Notes under the pieces: generated by a model
The model's database searches: none
What the model was told of the DNA's origin: nothing
What the model saw: only the letters and a program-made list of their open reading frames with translations
Shown: positions 1 to 39,131 of the stretch, piece by piece
Layout: every line of letters begins with the position of its first letter
Numbering within the stretch: position 1 is the stretch's first letter
Assembly (NCBI GenBank): GCA_012295275.1
Contig: CM022674.1
Coordinates: 12,211,864 to 12,275,863, forward strand
Reading direction: 5' to 3'
Length of the DNA stretch: 64,000 nucleotides
Source of the DNA: Chrysomallon squamiferum
Taxonomy: Eukaryota; Mollusca; Gastropoda; Neomphalida; Peltospiridae
Program-made: the position numbers and the translations under genes

Positions 1-106
1 ACATGTAAGATACTTCCACAAACTGGAACAACACTAAAACTCTGCCTGGGAAAATCAAGCGAAACAGAATATGAACATTGTGACTCAACAACAGAATCTT
101 GTAAAC
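1..106 (+). CDS. G1 exon A1, TSP1 (3' part)
   Basis: Cut by the window start. Reads TCKILPQTG...LKLCLG and ends in CK followed by donor gtaagt. Contains the last four of the six TSP1 cysteines. Ends in phase 1. Confidence 0.85.

Positions 107-39131: not shown

Follow-up and report, generated by a model that had tools for sequence, protein, structure and literature searches.

The plus strand of the window, i.e. the whole 64-kb stretch of DNA analysed here, carries many copies of three types of exon (A, B and C), which raises the question of whether these copies belong to one giant gene, how they multiplied and what they would encode. In searches with HMMs that were built in iterations from copies within the window, we detected 15 exons of type A and 14 each of types B and C on the plus strand. 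Sorted by position, these profile matches make up an array of 43 exons at 1-33365 in the strict order A(BCA)x14, with zero exceptions. A1 is truncated and, because the array runs off the left window edge where A1 is cut, 14 cassettes are a minimum. Thus, the preliminary description of about 14 tandem copies of a three-exon unit in the order B-C-A over about 33 kb was confirmed, 14 being a lower bound. The exon profiles placed the array as follows:

1..106, plus strand: A1, TSP1-like exon truncated at the window edge
1172..2777, plus strand: cassette 1 (B 1172-1334, C 1784-1932, A2 2583-2777)
3162..5004, plus strand: cassette 2 (B 3162-3324, C 3810-3958, A3 4810-5004)
5326..7102, plus strand: cassette 3 (B 5326-5488, C 5931-6079, A4 6906-7102, frame broken, +2 nt)
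7444..8966, plus strand: cassette 4 (B 7444-7606, C 8033-8178, A5 8772-8966)
9364..11184, plus strand: cassette 5 (B 9364-9526, C 10085-10233, A6 10990-11184)
11500..12949, plus strand: cassette 6 (B 11500-11662, C6 12085-12232, frame broken, -1 nt, A7 12755-12949)
13179..14339, plus strand: cassette 7 (B 13179-13341, C 13722-13870, A8 14145-14339)
14655..15577, plus strand: cassette 8 (B 14655-14817, C 15033-15181, A9 15383-15577)
17935..20094, plus strand: cassette 9 (B 17935-18097, C 18858-19006, A10 19900-20094)
21295..22672, plus strand: cassette 10 (B 21295-21463, C 21761-21906, A11 22469-22672)
23298..25657, plus strand: cassette 11 (B 23298-23466, C 24653-24801, A12 25463-25657)
26051..27816, plus strand: cassette 12 (B 26051-26213, C12 26952-27099, frame broken, -1 nt, A13 27622-27816)
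28221..30406, plus strand: cassette 13 (B 28221-28383, C 29491-29639, A14 30215-30406)
31053..33365, plus strand: cassette 14 (B 31053-31221, C 31474-31622, A15 33174-33365)

Intact complete copies on the plus strand scored 84-132 bits, values that are inflated because the copies trained the models, while the maxima in ten first-order Markov resamples of the window were 8.9 bits (A), 9.5 bits (B) and 8.5 bits (C). Despite the training on the copies, this difference excludes chance as the source of the array. A4 and C6 were recovered by the HMM search as frame-shifted fragments. All array exons have canonical borders (acceptor AG in 42/42, donor GT in 43/43) at corresponding places in every copy, counts that are partly by construction because the boundaries were picked near the homology limit to fit the phase. 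Introns at the A-B and C-A junctions are of phase 1 and those at the B-C junctions of phase 2, and this is uniform in 40/43 exons, the phase of A1 being judged from its 3' end only. Hence, the splice phases described as the same in all copies are so except in A4, C6 and C12, which are frame-broken.

The exon sizes, likewise described as the same, have a dominant length for each type: B is 163 nt long in 11/14 copies and 169 nt in 3/14; C is 149 nt in 10/14, 146 nt in two and 148 nt in two, both of the latter frame-broken; and A, in 14 complete copies, is 195 nt in ten, 192 nt in two, 204 nt in one and 197 nt in one that is frame-broken. However, only 6/14 cassettes (1, 2, 5, 7, 8 and 9) have exactly 163+149+195 = 507 nt. 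Array introns are between 201 and 2357 nt long. The flanking introns that the copies were said to share do retain similarity within 150 nt, but it is weak (0.55-0.61 per column vs 0.50 for random pairs); this slight excess of similarity near the exons matches the prediction of segmental duplication.

Three array introns have features of their own. The first contains a 57-nt minisatellite (292-1030; 13 copies, 99% match), the unit of which is a multiple of 3 and so gives long open frames on both strands. A degenerate tandem repeat of 19/36/72 nt lies at 20176-20760 in the intron 3' of A10. The largest intron, after A9, contains two antisense open frames (16519-17135, minus strand), for which the Pfam search gave no credible match (best E 0.027).

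The spliced cassettes are 68-84% identical, with cassettes 1-8 being 75-84% alike mutually and cassettes 10-14 more diverged. Within cassettes, the three exon types have correlated identity matrices (Mantel r 0.46-0.48, p 0.012-0.024), and duplication cassette by cassette is supported as the putative mode of growth. The boundary of the duplicated unit is not fixed by this analysis because the correlation between A and the following B (r 0.42, p 0.04) is nearly as strong as that within a cassette. Median dN/dS was 0.53 for A, 0.61 for B and 0.67 for C; values were below 1 in 77/78, 79/91 and 50/66 pairs, respectively, and above 1 in 1/78, 12/91 and 16/66 pairs, with a maximum of 2.61 for C. The array exons are thus under real but moderate constraint. 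We consider it somewhat probable that the array represents the 3' portion of a single animal gene, which expanded as a genomic cassette of three exons was duplicated in tandem. In such a gene, each cassette would encode a two-exon, six-cysteine and probably helical B+C module followed by a one-exon TSP1-like A module, and the cassettes would be spliced together.

Three exons interrupt this reading. A4 (6906-7102) is 2 nt too long, while C6 (12085-12232) and C12 (26952-27099) are each 1 nt short; owing to these indels, the assembled array is not a single open reading frame, and a transcript of all exons as assembled would stop in A4. The remainder of each broken exon retains its cysteines and splice sites, which suggests that the breaks are assembly errors or very recent changes. 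They could also be signs of decay, i.e. the array could be a former gene that is partly pseudogenised, with only some cassettes or the single-copy neighbours still in use. In line with such decay are, besides the three broken exons, dN/dS values that are not far below 1, a neighbouring gene on the minus strand (M2, below) with a frame-broken A exon and a phase mismatch, and a relic of a C exon positioned 3' of the last A exon (A15, 33174-33365):

33691..33823, plus strand: decayed remnant of the 3' portion of a C exon and of the intron after it, 73% to 6023-6155

However, 40/43 exons are open with their splice sites in place, the number of cysteines is constant in each intact copy, and even the broken exons keep theirs; we therefore regard decay as unlikely.

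The symmetry of the modules allows another reading of the same breaks, in which the product would vary in length, with cassettes or single A or BC units skipped in frame to give many putative isoforms and the broken cassettes left out. Phase 1 introns flank the A exons and the B+C pairs, either of which could be skipped without a frame shift, and all three breaks would be bypassed if A4, B6+C6 and B12+C12 were skipped. By contrast, evolutionary reasons alone make symmetric phase 1 modules frequent among extracellular proteins, and we are rather doubtful that such skipping accounts for the locus. The locus would suit a direct test of isoform-length diversity by long-read cDNA.

The identity of module A can be read from its residues. 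All intact complete A exons have exactly six cysteines (13/13) and a WxxW motif (13/13), and W5, W8, C15, C19, G20 and G22 are invariant in an alignment of 14 rows that includes the A exon of M3, another minus-strand gene described below. Moreover, 9/13 intact A exons have the pattern C..[ST]CG.G, which agrees with the O-fucose consensus CXX[S/T]C, a motif that some TSRs in the source lack (PMC11990869). Among Pfam families, PF00090 was the most frequent match of single A exons (10/14 members, best E 0.012), its scores, where shown, being 11.5-11.9 bits and thus under the cut-off of 21.6; similarly, TSP1_CCN matched the A exon of M3 with 18.3 bits, under its cut-off of 27. TSP1 families were absent from a Pfam scan, at E up to 10, of two spliced multi-cassette proteins. 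A profile search of the PDB with A gave 13 matches, of which the best was a TSP1 chain (E 0.63) and the other 12 were unrelated ribosomal proteins and chymase (E 1.3-1.6). Hydrophobic periodicity, which is weak evidence, was helix-like in 14/53 and strand-like in 18/53 windows of A. From the residue pattern, we conclude with high confidence that module A would be TSP1-like, and the earlier assignment of A to TSP1 stands, with Pfam bits, as shown, below the cut-off.

The partner of A is encoded by two exons that are split by a phase 2 intron and bounded by phase 1 introns. B has three cysteines in 14/14 copies and C has three in 12/12 intact copies; none of the six cysteine columns varies in the alignment of 16 BC members, in which M1-M3 are included and row 1 is a chimera. 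The same 16 members were scanned against Pfam, and nothing credible was found: eight families each matched one member, with a best E of 0.034. A search against PDB profiles likewise gave nothing credible, with two matches to unrelated molecules at E up to 10 (best E 0.49). Altogether, the six-cysteine domain encoded by two exons, which had been described as unrecognised, has a constant cysteine complement of 3+3 and remains so in Pfam and the PDB; identification of B+C as a known domain was rejected because the matches are at chance level.

Several further comparisons gave the same picture. In the Pfam scan of the multi-cassette proteins, the best match was DUF3859 (E 0.0074), below its cut-off, and a phmmer search of the PDB with a chimeric B-C-A query gave a single match, a Rad50 chain (E 0.31). 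The GDNF/GAS1 domain (PF02351) is helical, and its cysteine number and spacing differ from those of BC. BC resembles it in being cysteine-rich and extracellular, but this is a weak lead only, as the domain matched 1/16 members at E 0.2, i.e. at chance level, and we rejected it. Also rejected was an internal duplication relating B to C, for which the profile comparison gave a probability of 2.95% over 22 columns. Hydrophobic periodicity was helix-like in 24/37 windows of C (3 strand-like) and 18/42 windows of B (4 strand-like); this evidence is weak and hints that the B+C module is helical, C more so than B.

No relatives were found in a set of 5.8 billion proteins at E <= 10 with a single sequence or at E <= 1 with an alignment; as a query that contained TSP1 gave no match at all, this set is likely poor in spliced animal proteins, so that the negative result says little. 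A scan of contigs with one B exon gave two bacterial loci (23 residues at 54%), which we take as chance because the E-value covers candidate stretches only, and a search of viral contigs gave no relatives. The BC domain may already be present in public animal annotations as an uncharacterised protein.

Giant extracellular proteins with repeated composite units of unlike cysteine-rich domains include SCO-spondin, DMBT1 and FCGBP, the partner domains of which (LDLa, SID/CUB and VWD-C8-TIL) are known families. Unlike in these proteins, the partner in the array, BC, has no credible Pfam family. THSD7A and THSD7B, with their long runs of TSP1 domains, have a single-pass membrane form; to our knowledge, neither has an alternating BC module. 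The architecture in which TSP1 alternates with BC, which the preliminary description presented as not described to its author's knowledge, was absent among the matches listed in full-text literature searches. Tandem TSP1 proteins are a known kind, and so are giants made of composite cassettes; the novelty would lie in the partner domain, which Pfam and PDB searches do not recognise.

The array resembles THSD7A and THSD7B in its long TSP1 run and its putative membrane association. A published table gives 19 TSRs for THSD7A and 18 for THSD7B (PMC11990869). Another comparison is offered by the TSR + TM class of sea slugs, which comprises proteins with TSP1 domains only and a membrane region (PMC7663992). 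Like this mollusc class, the array would place TSP1 domains on a membrane-anchored protein; unlike it, the array alternates BC modules with A and so does not consist of TSP1 domains only (PMC7663992). The same article puts mollusc TSP1 proteins forward as candidates for the recognition of chloroplasts in sea slugs (PMC7663992). In the portions available, octopus papers mention only THSD4 and a somatomedin-B/TSP1 protein.

If the array is one gene, its 3' end should lie beyond A15. Two candidate exons were placed there:

35155..35232, plus strand: candidate linker exon, 78 nt, phase 1 to 1, weak, one of 38 phase-fitting candidates
35975..36074, plus strand: plausible membrane exon, 100 nt, phase 1 to 2, from hydrophobicity, position and fitting splice sites

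Spliced directly to 35975, A15 would read T+AA, i.e. a TAA stop; therefore, an extra exon of phase 1-1 would be needed before the membrane exon, for which 38 candidates between A15 and the membrane exon fit in phase. The membrane exon has 100 nt and phases 1 to 2 in common with that of M3 (43849-43948), a length that rests on the donor chosen in the analysis; with an earlier donor it would be 35975-36051, 77 nt and phase 0. In tblastn, the membrane exons of M1-M3 show no similarity to it. Thus, the single membrane exon described for the end of the array is plausible by hydrophobicity, position and splice sites, but its length depends on the donor and it does not resemble those of M1-M3. The tail exon described as ending at 39131 was not supported: its AG-ACC acceptor, joined to the phase 2 TG donor, gives TG+A, i.e. 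a TGA stop. The shorter membrane exon of phase 0 could join the tail at another AG. A 39-nt minisatellite of 12 copies (35460-35933), the unit of which is 13 codons long, ends about 40 nt before the membrane exon; it is open only in stretches and so is probably intronic.

A single membrane exon at the 3' end would set the array apart from several separate tandem genes of few cassettes each, the arrangement suggested by the small separate genes M1-M3 on the opposite strand nearby. In a strict hydrophobicity scan of the plus strand before 55 kb, two non-repetitive segments were found, the membrane exon and one at 3435; the latter is low-complexity and intronic, so that, apart from it, the strict scan has no second membrane segment in the array. 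However, the strict thresholds recognise 3/4 putative membrane exons and thus miss one of four, and a laxer complexity threshold adds 18 segments before 36.2 kb, giving 19 in total, among which a second membrane exon inside the array is possible. Arguing against separate genes, array B exons are 163 or 169 nt long and not of the 202-nt first-exon form of M1-M3, and we consider a split into such genes decidedly unlikely. The frame breaks, the TAA junction, a membrane exon unlike those of M1-M3 and possible internal membrane exons count against a single gene. One giant gene, as first proposed, remains the best reading, but with three frame-broken exons, an unsupported tail and a 5' end outside the window.

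The related exons on the minus strand fall into three genes:

45073..45274, minus strand: M3 B exon, 202 nt, starting inside a presumed signal peptide
44724..44872, minus strand: M3 C exon, 149 nt, the commonest array length
44224..44415, minus strand: M3 A exon
43849..43948, minus strand: M3 membrane exon, 100 nt
42412..42694, minus strand: M3 tail exon with stop, carrying a six-residue TSIERQ repeat
54120..54321, minus strand: M2 B exon, 202 nt, weak at 8.8 bits, 41% to M1 B
53385..53527, minus strand: M2 C exon, weak at 8.9 bits, from cysteines, phases and position
53011..53207, minus strand: M2 A-like exon, frame broken at an 11-A run, from cysteine pattern, phase and position
52271..52453, minus strand: M2 second A-like exon, weak profile score of 12.2 bits
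51368..51460, minus strand: M2 membrane exon candidate, the hydrophobic frame of which needs phase 2, the preceding exon ending in phase 1
62097..62298, minus strand: M1 B exon, 202 nt, 41% to M2 B
61102..61244, minus strand: M1 C exon, donor chosen among three
57569..57663, minus strand: candidate M1 membrane exon with an uncertain 3' boundary, the end resembling that of M2 (50% over 18 residues)

M3 is a single-cassette gene (45274-42412) in the order B-C-A-membrane-tail, and all five exons found are open and have array-like phases. The other two relatives, M2 and M1, are more diverged. In M2 (54321 to 51368), B and C are followed by a frame-broken A, a further A and a membrane exon. Against the array profiles, its B, C and A exons reach only 6-18 bits; they were called by cysteine pattern, phase and position, B also by its identity to M1 B. 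In M1 (62298 to about 57569), B, C and a membrane exon are present, and the array profile found no A exon. The B exon is 202 nt long in all three genes. The break at the 11-A run of M2 and the other single-base breaks hint at indel errors in the assembly.

The preliminary description left out the single-cassette relatives, which alter its account. With these relatives beside an expanded array, expansion of an M3-like gene is the simplest history. The array would thus have arisen from a BC-A-membrane receptor like M3, a direction that we infer from this neighbourhood. The window would then hold, within 64 kb, a likely single-copy ancestral form together with the expanded form, with the same splice phases. 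The predicted product is a long rod, rich in disulfides, with at least 15 TSP1-like and at least 14 BC modules, and it would end in a single transmembrane helix encoded by the exon at 35975. By analogy, this product is probably a surface or matrix protein that serves in adhesion or ligand binding, and it may bind matrix, cell-surface or microbial ligands multivalently. The type of module (TSP1-like, with possible O-fucose sites, and disulfide-rich) and the plausible membrane exon point to such a membrane-anchored multivalent rod, the rest being analogy.

As a tentative proposal, which we see as possible at best, B+C could be a previously uncatalogued six-cysteine extracellular domain that was joined to TSP1 in a small receptor and then multiplied at least 14-fold, giving a giant receptor or matrix protein, the symmetric phase 1 modules of which would permit in-frame isoforms of many lengths at a single locus. 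If true, this would add a domain family that is missing from Pfam, and a composite cassette that expanded with an uncatalogued domain in it would cleanly illustrate the growth of very long extracellular proteins.

The window gave no Rfam or tRNA match. Its spliceosomal introns and domain types suggest an animal source, which may be a mollusc and perhaps a cephalopod. Two repeats lie in or beside the minus-strand genes: an 18-nt tandem repeat (42483-42590, minus strand) in the M3 tail exon encodes the TSIERQ repeat, which would be in the presumed cytoplasmic tail, and a 239-nt direct duplication with copies 98% alike (47531-48009) lies between the M3 and M2 genes.
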